Below are positions 43,886 through 50,680 of a stretch of 50,687 nt of DNA, one piece after another. Position 1 is the stretch's first letter, and the number at the start of each line of letters is the position of its first letter. A model generated the notes under the pieces. The model was given only the letters and a program-made list of their open reading frames with translations. It did not search any database and was not told the DNA's origin. The position numbers and the translations under genes are program-made. The stretch is from an uncultured Litorivicinus sp. (GTDB lineage: Bacteria; Pseudomonadota; Gammaproteobacteria; Pseudomonadales; Litorivicinaceae): contig CACAXU010000004.1 in assembly GCA_902536515.1 (NCBI GenBank), positions 1-50,687 on the forward strand, given 5' to 3'.

Positions 43886-44244
43886 GGGGACGATATGGAT
43901 TCGACGCCGGTTACAAAACCAAATGTGCATGCCGAGCAGTTCTACAGTGCTCGTAAACCCAACTGTGGACTCGTTAGCTATAACTGCCAACGACGAAAAC
44001 TACGCTCTAGCAGCTTAAGCTAGACCCTGGGTGGAGATCGTCTCTGGTCTTCATCGACAGGGTTCGAAACAGAGACTCGCTTCAACGCTATGTCCGGGGT
44101 TGAGAAGCTAAACTTTAACTGGACTCGGAAAGGCGTTCCCTGTGCGTTGGGAGACCCGGACTTAAATTGAAAAACGTGACTAAGCATGTAGAGCGTTTGG
44201 CAGCGGACTGACGGACGCGGGTTCAAATCCCGCCGTCTCCACCA
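43886..44244 (+). ncRNA. ssrA: Transfer-messenger RNA (tmRNA)
   Basis: tmRNA rescues stalled ribosomes and tags the nascent protein. The 359-base gene begins GGGGACGATATGGATTCGACG, whose first seven bases pair with CGTCTCC at the 3' end, followed by A and encoded CCA. The tag frame at 43986-44018 encodes ANDENYALAA then TAA, the same peptide as in E. coli, with resume codon GCC. The T-arm GGGTTCAAATCCC is intact. The last bases are also the left attachment site of the integrated element, and the insertion preserves the mature RNA. Confidence 0.97.
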
Positions 44245-44245
44245 C
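44233..44245 (+). repeat. attL core repeat
   Basis: CCGTCTCCACCAC, the 3' end of tmRNA plus one base, identical to 50668-50680. Confidence 0.88.
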
Positions 44246-44305: not shown

Positions 44306-44334
44306 ATGTATGGAGTATGTGTGGAGTTTTAACC
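44306..44334 (+). repeat. Left copy of a subterminal repeat (candidate integrase arm sites)
   Basis: Two tandem TRTGGAGT-type units (TATGGAGT and TGTGGAGT, about 10 bp apart) followed by TTTAACC. A near-identical 30-bp copy lies at 50578-50607 in the same orientation. Paired repeats near both ends fit arm-type binding sites of the tyrosine recombinase. Confidence 0.6.
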
Positions 44335-44598
44335 CTCCAAAAATAATTTATCGAACAACTTGCCGGTAGGCATGGAGCACTACCCCCCACCGTGAAAAGT
44401 GCTAGTGCGCCCGACAGATTTTTAATTTTTCGCCGATCGCATTCGTTCTGAACCTAACTGAGGCATCCTATGCATTCATACCGCAGTACTGACGGCTAGT
44501 CCGATCTGTAGTCTTGAGCAATGCGACAGCAAAACCGGGACAAAGTAATGCTTATGGAGATTGCTAAATGCTGATCTAAAACTAGTGAGAATTTTTTT
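44335..44598. other. Non-coding left part of the element
   Basis: No credible gene. It contains a 6-bp inverted repeat AGCACT/AGTGCT (44376-44381 and 44398-44403) and ends in an A-then-T9 tract at 44591-44600 just before the DUF805 frame. I see no convincing promoter. Confidence 0.4.
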
Positions 44599-45009
44599 TT
44601 GGTTTGGGTTACCTTCGAAAAAAATTACACATGGACAGATTTCGATGTGAAGTGGTTCAGTTATTACGGTCAAGACAATCGTTTTGAATTTTGGATGCTC
44701 CCTTTGGTACTTCTTGGGATAAATATTTCGATTGGAGTGTTGATAGGTGCTTTTGAAGGCCTAAGCGGCCAAATTTTTCTTGGCGACGATAAACATATCA
44801 AACCGTTCGGTTTTGTTCTCAATACACTTATAATTTCAATGTCATTTGCTCGTCGATTAAGGGATACCGGTACGAATCCATGGTGGGCATTGATGCTAAT
44901 TGTTCCACTCTTAAACTTAATGCTCTTGCTATACGCTGGGATCAAACCATCAGCGCACCATATCATCTCTTCTCATAAATCAAATATCGGAGAGGAGGGC
45001 AAACCATAA
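44599..45009 (+). CDS. DUF805 family small membrane protein
   Basis: The 136-residue frame matches the DUF805 pattern: an N-terminal FSYYGQDNRFEFWML (usually FxGRxxRxEFW), then ARRLRDTGTNPWWALMLIVPLLN. Three to four membrane segments are visible (about 34-56, 68-86, 95-115). The family is common in bacteria and phage-like islands, but its function is unknown. The start is uncertain: TTG at 44599 sits in a T-run without a ribosome site, and a GTG at 44647 would give a shorter form. It is cargo of the ssrA element. Confidence 0.72.
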   Translation: MVWVTFEKNYTWTDFDVKWFSYYGQDNRFEFWMLPLVLLGINISIGVLIGAFEGLSGQIFLGDDKHIKPFGFVLNTLIISMSFARRLRDTGTNPWWALMLIVPLLNLMLLLYAGIKPSAHHIISSHKSNIGEEGKP

Positions 45010-45044: not shown

Positions 45045-45644
45045 TTGCGACTAGTGATACCTGACCTTCTGTCAAAGAATAAGTGCTCATTCATCTTCGT
45101 CCTCACTTTAGTGTTATCTATCAGTGTTGCCAATGGACAAGAAGAAACACAAATGGCAGGAACATATTTTGTTCCGCTAACGTCTGAAGACATTCAAGAC
45201 GACACGCACGAGCTAGTTGATTTCCTATCAGTCGTTCAGACTCACAACGGGTATCAAGTAGATGTCCTAACCAATTTTTTTAATGGCCACATTTGTTCAT
45301 TCAGCGGTGTCATGCAACGCGTACTAGAGAATCGATTACTGTTCGATGGGCCTCAAGAATATCCAAGCGAAGATTGCGTATTCGGCATTACTTGGACCGA
45401 GAAAGAGCTCGTGTTCGATGCAAAAGGCTGTCGAGATTATTGTGGCATGAGGGGAAGTTTGATTGGCGCGAAGTTCCCTCTCAGCTCAAAAAATTATCCA
45501 CCAATGCAAGATCGGACAGATAGGGAACTTTGCGAGCAAATCATAAGTCCAGATAGGGGAATCAATGATATGACTGAAGTGGAACAGGCTATTTTATTTG
45601 CTCGTGGTGTCGACCTTTGGGAGTGTAGAGAGGTTGTGCCTTAA
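45045..45644 (+). CDS. Exported cysteine-rich protein of unknown function
   Basis: I do not recognise this protein. It has 199 residues from a TTG at 45045, with a hydrophobic signal segment (CSFIFVLTLVLSISVANG, about 14-31) and likely cleavage near ANG-QEE. The mature part has six cysteines (HIC, EDC, GCRDYC, LC, WEC), suggesting disulfides in the periplasm. The TTG has a poor ribosome site. A strong AGAGGAGGG (44991-44999) is spaced for an in-frame ATA at 45006, which would add 13 residues. The frame is open there, so the true start may lie upstream. Paired with the DUF805 gene 36 bp before it. Confidence 0.6.
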   Translation: MRLVIPDLLSKNKCSFIFVLTLVLSISVANGQEETQMAGTYFVPLTSEDIQDDTHELVDFLSVVQTHNGYQVDVLTNFFNGHICSFSGVMQRVLENRLLFDGPQEYPSEDCVFGITWTEKELVFDAKGCRDYCGMRGSLIGAKFPLSSKNYPPMQDRTDRELCEQIISPDRGINDMTEVEQAILFARGVDLWECREVVP

Positions 45645-45831: not shown

Positions 45832-47373
45832 ATGAAAACAACATTGAAAGAGAAGCCAATGAGTCAAAAACACATTCTTGAAACCATCGTCGATAGATTA
45901 GTTACTGAGTTAAATACCTACTTCACCGAGGTTGGTAAGAAACAAGTTAAGTCAAAACTCCCTAACCTCAAGTTGTCGGTCAAAACCCTCATTGGCAACG
46001 TTCTTATTTCAGAAAATAAAGTTAGTGGACAAGGATACGCATCAATCCATCTCAGCCCTAACTGGTATAGTGACTCCACACGATATAAGACAAAACACTC
46101 ATACCGCATCCTTGTCGAGAGAGCCTATCGGGGCCTAATCCATCTAGGGTACCTGTCCCAAGCAAAAGTCGGGGTATCTCATGGCTCTCGTGGTTTGTAT
46201 CTCACCCGCTACAGAGCGACACTAAAATTACTGAATCTCTTCGATTCAAGGTCCCTCATTGAACTTCCCGTTCTCTTCGCGGGACAGCTTGAGGTTGGTG
46301 AAACCATCCGAGTTCAACAGACCTATCAAGAACAGGTGCCGTTGAAAGAATTCGATAAAAACGGAGAACCGAAAACAAGGACAGTGAAATACAGAAAACT
46401 GGTTGATTACTACGATACAGAACAAACAAACCAGATGCGACAAAACCTTCAGTTCATTAATGACCGTATCGCAACGAAGTGGATCGATCTTGAGTTAAGT
46501 AAAGAAGAGCACCTTGATTTAGTCGCCCAGATGGCCAAGAAAGACAAAGAACATCTCGAAGACAGTCCCGATGATTACCGTCCACTCATGCTCTCAAAAC
46601 GAAGTCTTTACCGTGTGTTTAACGACACTGAATTTAAAACTGGGGGTCGCTTCTACGGAGGCTGGTGGCAAGAGATACCGTCAAAGTTCAGAGATCGTAT
46701 CACTATCGACGGCAAGAGGACGGTACAACTCGACTACTCGGGATTACATCCGCATATCCTGTATCACGAGAAGGGTCTTGAGCTCAATGACGACCCGTAT
46801 CAGGTGAATTTAATCCCAAGCAAGAATGCCGAAGATGCGGATGGGTTCCGAAAATTTGTTAAGCAATCTTTCAACGCAATGCTAAATGCAACGGTTGAGA
46901 TGCAAAGAGCCCCGAGGGGAAGCCGGCTTGGCCACTGGGGTATGACGTGGAAGCAGGTCGTTAAAGCCATCAGAGACAGACACCCTGATATCGAAGATCA
47001 GTTCTTCACCGGAGCTGGTCTCAGACTTCAACGTATCGACAGCGATCTGTGTGAAGCAGTGATGCTTGCAATGATGAAACGCTCCCCGGAAATCGTCGTC
47101 CTACCCGTCCATGACAGCTTTATTGTGCATCACGGATATAAGAATGAACTGATGGCGATGATGTTGGGTACCTACTGTGTTAAGTACGGAAACATCCCCT
47201 TGCCTAAGACATCGGAAGATATGGTGGTTGAAGTTGCTGGACCACCAGCGTGGGCTAGCTGGACTAGTCAACAACTCGATCATGATGATCTCACTGACAT
47301 GCTTCGGCTGGCAGATACCGTACCGAACGAAGTTAGGCGAATGCTCTTTCTATTAAACCGATCTAGCGTTTAA
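45832..47373 (+). CDS. PolA-like (family A polymerase palm) protein of a mobile element
   Basis: The 513-residue product has no exonuclease domain. Its C-terminal half resembles a family A polymerase palm/fingers: LDYSGLHPHILY (301-311) like motif A DYSQIELR, FRKFVKQSFNAML (339-351) like motif B with R340 and K344, RIDSDLCEAVMLAMMK (401-416) like the helix before motif C, and VVLPVHDSFIV (422-432) like motif C, with H427 and D428. Both catalytic Asp positions are kept. GGRFYGGWWQEIP (271-283) is a distinctive extra block. The N-terminal half (1-250) looks like DNA-binding or winged-helix sequence. It probably replicates the element, but polymerase activity is inferred. ATG 45859 is an alternative start. 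Its stop interlocks with the convergent DUF262 gene. Confidence 0.78.
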   Translation: MKTTLKEKPMSQKHILETIVDRLVTELNTYFTEVGKKQVKSKLPNLKLSVKTLIGNVLISENKVSGQGYASIHLSPNWYSDSTRYKTKHSYRILVERAYRGLIHLGYLSQAKVGVSHGSRGLYLTRYRATLKLLNLFDSRSLIELPVLFAGQLEVGETIRVQQTYQEQVPLKEFDKNGEPKTRTVKYRKLVDYYDTEQTNQMRQNLQFINDRIATKWIDLELSKEEHLDLVAQMAKKDKEHLEDSPDDYRPLMLSKRSLYRVFNDTEFKTGGRFYGGWWQEIPSKFRDRITIDGKRTVQLDYSGLHPHILYHEKGLELNDDPYQVNLIPSKNAEDADGFRKFVKQSFNAMLNATVEMQRAPRGSRLGHWGMTWKQVVKAIRDRHPDIEDQFFTGAGLRLQRIDSDLCEAVMLAMMKRSPEIVVLPVHDSFIVHHGYKNELMAMMLGTYCVKYGNIPLPKTSEDMVVEVAGPPAWASWTSQQLDHDDLTDMLRLADTVPNEVRRMLFLLNRSSV

Positions 47374-49154
47374 TAACACCATCTCTCACAACACCATTGA
47401 GCAATGCGAATAGAACGCTGTTCAATCGCTTCAAGATTCCAAGTCTCGTTTTCAAGAGCAACTTCTCTGGTTCCAGCAAAAACTGAATTCTTCAGTCTTT
47501 CTCGCTTGCCTTCCCACGGGCCATTCGATATTTCCGCGTTCATAACACCAGTAATTAAAACCAAATTACCCCATGCGCTGTTTAGTTCGCGGAATCTCTG
47601 AGAGGTACTCAAAACACTCCAACCAGCTGATGGCTTTTGAGGCATGAGGTGTTCAATTTGGAATTCATTCTCCGCAAGTTCACTCCCAGCAACTGCTTTC
47701 TCACGTTCCAACATTGCTGATCTCGAGATTTTTCGTGCATAAAAATTGCCAGACCGAAGAGCATTCTTTATCTCTTCATCATCGGGCCATTTAACAGTCG
47801 GGTTTGATCGGAGAATATCTGTGAGTATCTCAGGCCATGTACCCGGATCATGTAACGCTTGATCCTCAATTTGTTTCCACATCCCTTTAAAAACAGCATG
47901 TAGTCCAGAGGGCTCGTGACCACACAAAGCTCTTCGCACTACGAAGGATTCGAAGACATCTAAACACGCTAAAATTGACTCAATCGAATCATCATGTGAA
48001 CAACCGTGACGCCATAATCCGAAGAGGAATGGATAAGTAGTGCTTGGAACCCTGAACGAGTTTAAAAGAGAATATCGTCGAGCTACGTTCTGCATATGAT
48101 TGGGCATATGCTCCGTAGGAGTTTTACCTGATTCGAGCAAGATAAGAGGTGCAGAAAATATCTGCATCTCATCAATCAATTCTCTCGTTGTTCGCTCAAT
48201 ACCCCAATATTTTCTTAAAGCAATGAACAGCTCTTTTTTCGCAGTGGCAGGATCGACTAAGAGGCCATAGGGGAAAAGCAATTTGGCAAAATCGACATCG
48301 TATTTGGTAAAGGTGCTGACGAAAGGTTTCCAATGATTTTTGAAGGTATTTTGTTCCTCCGAAATATCTTTTGTACGCGAAAACAACTCATTCCTAACCA
48401 AATCGGCTATATCAATTTTCTCTCCACGAGCATTCAAACGTTCGAAAACTTGCGGGGCAGTTAGAGGGTCTTTCAAATCGATCGTAACAAAGGACAAATT
48501 TCTCGTGAGGATACTTAGATAGGAGTTCCACGCTGGATATCCTCCGTCCGATAATAACGCTTTGAACTTGCGGTCAAAGTAATCAAAACATTTCGTTAGT
48601 TTACCGTCATCATATCCAGATCCAGCGTCAGTTGTAGGTTCGTTCCCACGCCAAACTGTAGGATCAACAATTCCCTGAATTCTCGACCAAATCCGCGTAA
48701 ACTGAGCACCATCCTCCGCCGAAGGGATCAGCCTTGTATTACCGTGTTGTTGATATTGAGCTGTTCCAGCCAAACCTACCGTTTGGAATATCTGAACAGC
48801 CTCTACCCTTCTATCAACTTCCCTCTCGTGAAGAGCGTACGCGGCGGCCATGATAGCTAAATACAAAGTGGTTAAACGCTGTTGTCCATCTACAACATCA
48901 TAGATTGATCCGGCACCAATCCCGGCTGATGTCGTTGGAACCAGAACCAGAACACCCAAGAATTGACTGGCGTTGGAGTCATCCTTTAGATCAATCTCTA
49001 TTTTTTCAACATCGCTCCACAACTGATCAAAATGTTTTCTCTGCCACGTAAAAGGGCGCTGAAATAGAGGAATGCGCAGTCTATCGCCGCCCTGAAAAAT
49101 ATCGACAATTGCCTTTTCTTGCTGATCGTTAGTAAATTTCAGTTCCGCTTTCAT
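47370..49154 (-). CDS. DUF262-DUF1524 protein, GmrSD-like type IV restriction enzyme
   Basis: GmrSD enzymes cut modified phage DNA, for example glucosylated hydroxymethylcytosine, using an NTP-dependent ParB/Srx-like DUF262 domain and an HNH-type DUF1524 nuclease. This single polypeptide of 594 residues has IPLFQRPFTWQRKHFDQLW and DVVDGQQRLTTLYL (DUF262) in its first 100 residues. Near the C-terminus it has EFQIEHLMPQ and WGNLVLITGVMNAEISN (DUF1524 His and Asn), so the two modules are fused. ATG 49154 is preferred over GTG 49163. It is probably the element's anti-phage cargo; the specific target is unknown. Confidence 0.88.
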   Translation of the reverse strand: MKAELKFTNDQQEKAIVDIFQGGDRLRIPLFQRPFTWQRKHFDQLWSDVEKIEIDLKDDSNASQFLGVLVLVPTTSAGIGAGSIYDVVDGQQRLTTLYLAIMAAAYALHEREVDRRVEAVQIFQTVGLAGTAQYQQHGNTRLIPSAEDGAQFTRIWSRIQGIVDPTVWRGNEPTTDAGSGYDDGKLTKCFDYFDRKFKALLSDGGYPAWNSYLSILTRNLSFVTIDLKDPLTAPQVFERLNARGEKIDIADLVRNELFSRTKDISEEQNTFKNHWKPFVSTFTKYDVDFAKLLFPYGLLVDPATAKKELFIALRKYWGIERTTRELIDEMQIFSAPLILLESGKTPTEHMPNHMQNVARRYSLLNSFRVPSTTYPFLFGLWRHGCSHDDSIESILACLDVFESFVVRRALCGHEPSGLHAVFKGMWKQIEDQALHDPGTWPEILTDILRSNPTVKWPDDEEIKNALRSGNFYARKISRSAMLEREKAVAGSELAENEFQIEHLMPQKPSAGWSVLSTSQRFRELNSAWGNLVLITGVMNAEISNGPWEGKRERLKNSVFAGTREVALENETWNLEAIEQRSIRIAQWCCERWCY

Positions 49155-49223
49155 TTGGCCCACTCAGTAATCATTAGTCAATCGTTCTCGCGTTGAAAGA
49201 ATCGATACAAGTTAACGGAAAAA

Positions 49224-50570
49224 TTATTGCGTATCTATGAGCTTCGAACATCCGTCGGGAAGCAGAGGCAGTGAGTTCACTATTTTTGCTTTCTCTGCAT
49301 GTCCCAAGCCCGCATAATATGTCCTACCAAGCTCAGTCGCACTTACAGAATCCCGGCCATGACCGGTCAACTCACTTGCTTTTAATTCCCCGAATTCATT
49401 CACCAGATATGTTGAAAACGCGTGTCGAAAAGAGTGAAACACGTACTTAGCGTCGTCGACACCCAGCTGTCTGAAATATCGCCGCTTAAAATAAGTGAAG
49501 CATTTGCCTAATGAGTCTGAGTTCGGAGCCAACCATTGAATACGGCCCACCGAAGCATCGTACAGTGGTGATTCAGAAATCAGAGTCCAGAGATGATCGT
49601 GTAATGGAATCTGTCGAGTTGCGGCTTTAGTTTTACCACCCTGATCGGCAATTCGTAACAACATATATCCATCAATTTGCTCAATAGTCGCTGAAAAGGC
49701 TTCTGAGATGCGCACACCGGTATAGTGCCCGATGGCTATCAAGAGCGATAATTGAGAATTTGGAGCCTCAGCAAATAAACCACGTGCATATTCTAGTGGC
49801 ATCATGGCTCGTGGCTTGTCATCACGCTTTACCGAACGTAATCGTTGCTCCTTGAACGGATTCAATCGCTCGTCAGTGATATATCCAAGTCGCTGTGCAT
49901 AATCAAAAACCTGACCAAGTGATGTGAGATAGCCGCGTATTGTGGTTTCATGCAGGCTTTTGCGCTCCAAATACTGCACATATTTGAAGACCAGCGTTTT
50001 CTTCACGCGCGAGAAGTCATATGTGTCTGAACGCATAAACTCGTTGAAAGTCCGCACAGCCCGACGACTGCGACTGATGGTCTTCACCGCAAAGTCGCTC
50101 GAACGATAATTCAGGTACTCATCGTGTAACGTTACCAAGTGAAGAGGATGATGGTGCTGAATAGTAGCCAATGGGTCGCGCAGGCTTTGCTCACGACTCC
50201 GATCTCCAGCAATACGACTGGCATAAGTCTCTGGAAGCTTCGATCCAAGACCAACGGTGTCTTCAACCACCTCTTGCAGAAGCTCACGCTCTTCATCGCT
50301 GAATCGCTCATCACCACTAAAGGTCTTCCAATAAATTTCTGCCGGCGATGCCTCGTCGCTGAAACCAAATAACCCATGTTCTTTAAAAAACGCATCGCGA
50401 AATCGACAGGCCTCTTGTATATCTGGTGTTCTAGTCGAGCACTGATAAGTTTCGCGACCAGCAAATGGCGGCTGGTTCCGATGAGACTCGGGCACCCGAA
50501 AGTTGAGCATCCAGTTCTTCGACTTGCTCCGATTGATGGTAAGATAGTCATGACGATATCGACGGGTCAT
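49224..50570 (-). CDS. Tyrosine recombinase / site-specific integrase
   Basis: The 448-residue integrase should catalyse recombination at the ssrA 3' end. It has a core-binding domain (about 145-240) and a catalytic domain with Arg287 (TGVRISEA), a lysine at about 313 (GGKTK), HSFRHAF (His379, Arg382), His404 in GHG, and the nucleophile Tyr at 418 or 419 (RTYYAG). The N-terminal 130 residues resemble those of large proteobacterial island integrases. It is transcribed away from the right end, 97 bp from attR, with its ATG eight bases from the right subterminal repeat, which suggests autoregulation. Confidence 0.95.
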   Translation of the reverse strand: MTRRYRHDYLTINRSKSKNWMLNFRVPESHRNQPPFAGRETYQCSTRTPDIQEACRFRDAFFKEHGLFGFSDEASPAEIYWKTFSGDERFSDEERELLQEVVEDTVGLGSKLPETYASRIAGDRSREQSLRDPLATIQHHHPLHLVTLHDEYLNYRSSDFAVKTISRSRRAVRTFNEFMRSDTYDFSRVKKTLVFKYVQYLERKSLHETTIRGYLTSLGQVFDYAQRLGYITDERLNPFKEQRLRSVKRDDKPRAMMPLEYARGLFAEAPNSQLSLLIAIGHYTGVRISEAFSATIEQIDGYMLLRIADQGGKTKAATRQIPLHDHLWTLISESPLYDASVGRIQWLAPNSDSLGKCFTYFKRRYFRQLGVDDAKYVFHSFRHAFSTYLVNEFGELKASELTGHGRDSVSATELGRTYYAGLGHAEKAKIVNSLPLLPDGCSKLIDTQ

Positions 50571-50577
50571 ACATTAA

Positions 50578-50607
50578 ATGTATGGAGTTTGTATGGAGTT
50601 TTCAACC
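50578..50607 (+). repeat. Right copy of the subterminal repeat (candidate integrase arm sites)
   Basis: Two TATGGAGT units (50581 and 50592) followed by TTTTCAACC, matching 44306-44334 with few differences and in direct orientation. It overlaps the region where the integrase promoter and ribosome site must lie. Confidence 0.6.
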
Positions 50608-50667
50608 ACTGAAGGCCCCTATATCATTGATATCTCGGGGTTTAGACCAATTAAGGGGAGCCTCCCT

Positions 50668-50680
50668 CCGTCTCCACCAC
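50668..50680 (+). repeat. attR core repeat
   Basis: CCGTCTCCACCAC, identical to the ssrA 3' end at 44233-44245. It marks the displaced original end of the tmRNA gene and the right boundary of the element. Confidence 0.88.

Follow-up and report, generated by a model that had tools for sequence, protein, structure and literature searches.

What does a polymerase-like gene do inside a small integrative element at the end of a tmRNA gene? The question is raised by a stretch of 50,687 nucleotides from an uncultured Litorivicinus sp. (GenBank assembly GCA_902536515.1, contig CACAXU010000004.1, positions 1 to 50,687 of the forward strand), referred to here at its full length as the window. The list of open reading frames (ORFs) places the gene at positions 45832–47373 of the forward strand, with an ATG start and a product of 513 amino acids. 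The gene is housed in an integrative element, as are its relatives. On a balance that tips slightly in its favor, the 513-residue protein is read as a predicted family A-type polymerase that likely replicates the excised circle of this tmRNA-bounded element.

The original prediction described a divergent family A-like polymerase with motifs A, B and C in order, a motif B without its usual YG and no exonuclease domain. The motif blocks were placed in order at residues 271–280 (GGRFYGGWWQ), 301–308 (DYSGLHPH), 340–351 (RKFVKQSFNAML) and 426–430 (VHDSF), and the residue numbers proposed for the catalytic aspartates, D301 and D428, are correct. N352–A353 stand where the YG of motif B would be, and position 352 across the 115 aligned rows is N (84) or Q (30), with a single T. 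The expected palm domain appears in the structural model, in which residues ~150–470 superpose on family A polymerases and, next, on single-subunit RNA polymerases. The protein matched no exonuclease family in the family search, in agreement with the claim that such a domain is lacking. Residues before ~150 form a separate small domain of another kind, which is DNA-binding-like.

The modeled active site agrees with the motif assignment. D301 lies at the end of a strand (295–301), and D428 lies in a hairpin turn between strands 424–426 and 429–433. A strand-end Asp and a hairpin-turn Asp are the layout expected of motifs A and C, and the superposition ranges suggest that the two residues are co-located in the predicted fold. 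R340 and K344 are on a modeled helix (336–352) in the place of the O helix. Motif A presumably resembles the family B consensus, and GGRFYGG presumably resembles the YxGG of protein-primed polymerases. A family B similarity was nevertheless rejected: the fold ranking favors family A, with family B chains far lower in the list (4q5v, E 0.11, probability 0.44).

Conservation was assessed in three alignments: one of 77 rows (the window protein and 76 locus ORFs, each of at least 440 residues), a broader one of 115 rows that includes phage members, and one of 96 rows of relatives (alignment A1). In the first, D301, R340, K344, H427 and D428 are each kept in 77/77 rows. In the second, D301, R273 and K344 are kept in all 115 rows and R340, H427 and D428 in 114, with single deviants at R340 (P0092) and D428 (P0101). 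The A1 rows have D301 and K344 in 96/96, D428 in 95/96 (P0101 deviates) and R340 in 92/96. Because the catalytic residues are kept nearly throughout, the inactive derivative that had been offered as one option is disfavored. A chance origin of the motifs was rejected on the basis of this conservation together with the predicted fold. Q400, which we take to be the counterpart of Gln849 in Klenow and His784 in T7 RNA polymerase, is Q in 106 of the 115 rows, M in 8 and H in 1.

The predicted fold is shared with family A DNA polymerases (Pol I/Klenow, T7 gp5 and the apicoplast polymerase; PF00476), as are the Asp residues of motifs A and C and the Arg and Lys of motif B. The window protein differs in having no PF00476 match, in lacking the Glu of motif A, the YG of motif B and an exonuclease, and in being a protein of 513 residues with an N-terminal domain of another kind. 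Pol I has Glu five residues after the motif A Asp (D+5) and Tyr-Gly in motif B (alignment A2); in T7 RNA polymerases D+5 is Gly (alignment A3). At the same position (H306 in the window protein) the 115 rows have H in 74, N in 31, Q in 4, F in 3, W in 2 and S in 1. H, N, Q, F and W at D+5 have side chains that fit a sugar gate, and therefore a DNA polymerase is suggested.

Searches of Pfam, NCBIfam, PADLOC and PDB sequences gave nothing of value for the window protein. At E <= 1 it matched neither PF00476 nor PF00940, the family of single-subunit RNA polymerases, nor any of the family B polymerase Pfam models. PF00476 was absent among the 25 of 52 families listed for 96 relatives, PF00940 was matched weakly in 7 of the 96 (best E 0.0059), and a precomputed Pfam domain was found in none of the 120 family proteins listed. 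The protein does match phrog_4756 (E 2.1e-44), a family annotated as "unknown function" for which no paper using that name was found. The family is large: of 7996 candidates scored in a search of 5.8 billion proteins, 2602 reached E <= 1e-3. A literature search, with subscription journals largely outside its coverage, found no paper recognizable by its title or opening abstract lines as treating this polymerase family or Pol A-encoding integrative elements.

Profile comparisons were made with hhalign, an insensitive method here, on shallow alignments: A1 scored E 0.15 against Pol A, where motif A was aligned in register, and E 0.2 against T7 RNA polymerase, where no motif was aligned. Since Pol A and T7 RNA polymerase, which are known relatives, gave only E 0.75 against each other, profile-profile comparison is too insensitive in this setting. 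When A1 was used as a hidden Markov model (HMM), Pol A proteins scored at best E 4.1 and did not stand out from decoys. With a broader HMM, alignments were printed for four Pol A sequences, all of which had motif A in register at non-significant scores, and for a single RNA polymerase, which was aligned elsewhere. This HMM reported no match for T7 DNA polymerase, T7 RNA polymerase or two phage polymerases.

The element in the window measures 6.4 kb and is bounded by repeats of the tmRNA 3' end. The tmRNA gene (43886–44244, forward strand; ARAGORN and Rfam RF00023, 193.8 bits) provides its 3' end as the integration site. The left attachment site (attL), 18 nt at the 3' end of the tmRNA region (44228–44245, forward strand), is repeated directly (repeat D4, 17/18 identical) as attR at 50663–50680, also on the forward strand and 7 bases before the window ends. 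The tyrosine integrase is encoded on the reverse strand at 49224–50570 (PF13102, E 1.8e-10; PF00589, E 6.6e-7; phrog_1 integrase, E 2.9e-29). A 30-nt direct repeat (D2) lies near attL at 44306–44335 and again, 87% identical, at 50578–50607, directly upstream of the integrase start. The two copies, likely integrase arm sites, contain an internally repeated GGAGT unit. The other genes are probable cargo: a DUF805 protein (44599–45009, forward; PF05656, E 2.5e-10), a 199-residue ORF from the ORF list for which the family searches gave no credible match (45045–45644, forward), and, as defense cargo, a GmrSD-type (DUF262/DUF1524) restriction protein (47370–49163, reverse; PF03235, E 1.8e-28; PF07510, E 2.2e-21). 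This last gene is also matched by the PADLOC Orf5 and HEC-06 models; it is convergent with the polymerase gene and overlaps it by 4 bp.

The association of the polymerase gene with integrases extends to its relatives. A scan of GTDB species genomes gave 248 relatives, of which 80 were retained; SAR116 and Rhodobacteraceae-type Alphaproteobacteria account for many of these. IMG/VR added 8. The collections are rich in marine Alphaproteobacteria, neighborhood ORFs were chosen simply as the longest ones, and single linkage was used for clustering. At least 8 kb was available on both flanks in 31 of the 80 genome loci, and within 8 kb of the polymerase gene these contained a tyrosine integrase in 29/31, a tRNA or tmRNA in 27/31 and both in 25/31. 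The two loci without an integrase within that distance are L012 and L051. In the case of L012, from an uncultured Litoricola, the polymerase is 65% identical to that of the window and adjoins a tmRNA, a similar 30-nt repeat is present, and no integrase was found within 10 kb of the polymerase. Integrase density per 10 kb falls from 1.5 within 500 bp of the polymerase gene to 0.0 at 8–10 kb, and tRNA genes peak at 1.5–2.5 kb.

Whole genomes gave the same pattern. In G000 and G061–G067, a PF00589 match lies within ~8 kb of all 11 polymerase copies, a count that leaves out one 59-column fragment in G064 and is made against a background of 5–43 PF00589 matches per genome. Seven of the genomes were chosen from loci already seen, so the unbiased check is provided by three extra copies in G063 and G066, all of which have a nearby PF00589 match. 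The polymerase family is present in 32/248 genomes drawn from the family of G061, and several of the copies contain stop codons, as expected of decaying elements. Contig C5 of G066 carries three family copies, at 1042575, 2554497 and 3812425. Two of them are identically scored, with an integrase match ~1.7 kb from each, possibly by recent duplication or transposition.

Direct repeats of a tRNA end beyond the polymerase were found in 25 of 91 loci (L010–L099 and the window), where they bound 4.8–18.1 kb. The stricter cut-off used for this count misses the window's own repeat, which was found separately. By our own arithmetic, fewer than 1e-4 such repeats are expected by chance per locus. The integrase lies inside the called bounds in 23 of the 25 att-bounded loci; in L024 and L089 the start of the called integrase ORF overlaps the boundary.

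Empty sites were also observed. The joined flanks of the L041 element of Paracoccus alkanivorans, tRNA-Val and a gene we take to encode ribosomal protein L36, were matched in 286/295 genomes, and all matches listed cross the joint, as in an uninterrupted site. For L063, the joint is spanned in one of the 15 genomes of the genus (G370). In another genome of the genus, G314 (contig C10, 250174–262118), the two halves of the L063 site, at tRNA-Ala, are ~11.5 kb apart. The insertion between them contains a 44% relative of the L030 integrase, and the polymerase family is unmatched in that genome.

Cargo varies among the elements and includes type I, II, III and ISP restriction systems, STAND and SLATT proteins and others. 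It was scanned in 93 of 112 ORFs of at least 120 residues (25 of 45 families listed), and 74 of these were rescanned with complete lists; the other 19 belong to L074 (14), L041 (2), L055, L072 and L087 (1 each). Families of relaxases, replication initiators, primases, DnaB-type helicases and virion proteins were all absent from the 74 rescanned ORFs. A phage remnant was considered and rejected, as the 93 scanned ORFs contained no capsid, terminase or tail family among the families listed. Helicase-type domains (DEAD, ResIII, AAA_11/12, AAA_30, Viral_helicase1) and one RNase_T exonuclease are present and are assumed to be of defense type. A resolvase-type serine recombinase occurs in 9 of the 25 att-bounded elements (L026, L038, L041, L048, L050, L053, L060, L065 and L086) and, by the listed gene order, directly adjoins the polymerase in six; its role could be the resolution of multimers formed as a circle replicates.

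Taken as a replicase, the polymerase would act as follows. The integrase would cut the element out as a circle, residues 1–150 would bind element DNA, and the palm with D301 and D428 would extend DNA on the circle without an editing exonuclease, after which the element would re-integrate at a tRNA or tmRNA 3' end. The whole would work in a pipolin-like manner, with a hallmark polymerase of Pol A rather than Pol B type. As described in PMC7385651, pipolins have a family B polymerase as their hallmark and only core gene, together with tyrosine recombinases, att repeats at tRNA genes and restriction cargo. The elements described here are likewise polymerase-marked and integrative, with a tyrosine recombinase, att-like repeats in a tRNA or tmRNA gene and restriction cargo. 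They differ from the pipolins of that paper in the predicted family A fold of the polymerase, in a size of about 5–18 kb and in using the tmRNA and several tRNAs as sites, and the core status of the polymerase is judged here solely in polymerase-fetched loci. By polymerase family, they fall outside the definition of pipolins. IntY islands share the tmRNA site, short direct repeats, tyrosine integrase and defense cargo, whereas a polymerase gene accompanies the integrase here and the word "polymerase" is absent from the main text of PMC12595487. The mobility of small islands without transfer genes is termed enigmatic in PMC11389934. An integrase-linked polymerase would partly explain such movement, by self-replication after excision.

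A broader proposal, less likely than not, is a new class of self-replicating integrative elements in Alpha- and Gammaproteobacteria, many of them marine, that pairs an integrase with a DNA-binding domain fused to a primer-independent Pol A-fold polymerase. If such a two-gene class exists, it would parallel the pipolins with a family A in place of a family B polymerase, and its polymerases would form a third branch in the superfamily of Pol A and T7 RNA polymerase. So compact a branch would be informative on sugar selection, through its His/Asn gate, and on how synthesis starts, and a polymerase this small is possibly a useful enzyme.

Several results weigh against replication by a family A enzyme or qualify the case for it. 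The protein lacks the motif B YG and the Glu gate seen in family A DNA polymerases, its link to Pol A is not significant by sequence profiles alone, and the broader HMM places Pol A proteins at E 0.1–8, a range shared with decoys and a small number of Pol A sequences in reverse. The integrase is the sole other gene common to the fetched loci, and these were fetched by the polymerase gene, so its own presence throughout follows from the search design. Distances among polymerases and among integrases are correlated over 45 loci (r 0.745, against at most 0.18 in 500 permutations), a value that shared host descent may raise. In the converse count, with up to five candidates scored per genome, the integrase of the att-bounded L030 element of Rhodovulum euryhalinum had a match of at least 60% identity in 12 genomes, and in 7 of these no polymerase of the family lies within ~5 kb. 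The seven are G098, G102, G158, G147, G092, G181 and G069, with matches at contig ends in G092 and G181 and a 91-residue piece in G069; in G061, G277, G220, G275 and G194 the polymerase and the integrase match share a contig and are within ~5 kb of each other. The polymerase is thus not obligatory for this integrase. Direct repeats of 10 nt in the 330 nt upstream of 71 polymerase genes show no excess (11, as compared to 8.5 in 20 mononucleotide shuffles). Finally, three phages with a relative were checked, and each owns a replicative-type polymerase.

These results leave room for other functions. An element-specific single-subunit RNA polymerase or primase, whose N-terminal domain recognizes element DNA and whose RNA product serves as transcripts or primers, is unlikely, though it has the superfamily fold and the HDSF of motif C in its favor. 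The fold score against single-subunit RNA polymerases (T7 and mitochondrial; PF00940) is lower, the Gly at D+5 is absent, and the window protein is 370 residues shorter than T7 RNA polymerase. We give less credence to defense or counter-defense cargo, in which the polymerase would make DNA or RNA during phage infection in the manner of abortive-infection reverse transcriptases. The elements do carry many defense genes, phages of the ICP1 and Barba groups also have the gene, and the three phages checked own a polymerase; with no PADLOC match, the system would be a new type. However, defense cargo varies from element to element, whereas the polymerase stays and diverges with the integrase, a constancy that is partly due to the search design.

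Least probable of all is an accessory repair or gap-filling polymerase that assists excision and integration without being a replicase. It would account for the constant pairing with a tyrosine integrase, for the absence of initiator, primase or DnaB-type helicase families from the complete cargo lists (74 ORFs), and for the accessory status of the phage relatives checked. On the other hand, integrase relatives exist without the polymerase, and tyrosine recombination is generally understood as needing no DNA synthesis.

Relatives were found in 290 phage records by tblastn with an Aeromonas phage protein as the query. Most are from Vibrio (146) and Rheinheimera (115), and ICP1 is among the phages with a relative. 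Aeromonas phages 4L372D and 2L372X have a Pol A-type gene besides the relative, and the annotation of Barba1S includes a separate DNA polymerase and a primase. Because each of these three phages has its own replicative-type polymerase, the relative is accessory in them, and for the same reason the BFVD label "DNA polymerase" on one Barba protein carries little weight for function. The relative in Vibrio phage ICP1 is ORF100 (L136:11179–12846), which keeps D301, R340, K344, H427 and D428; a Mom-like DNA modification gene is found two genes downstream of it.

The region upstream of the polymerase gene also contains inverted repeats. In the 330 nt upstream at 71 loci, 27 inverted repeats of 9 nt were counted, as compared to about 5 in shuffles, with few loci dominating the excess. 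These loci are L023, L033, L031 and L039, and the repeats are possibly terminators or regulatory structures.
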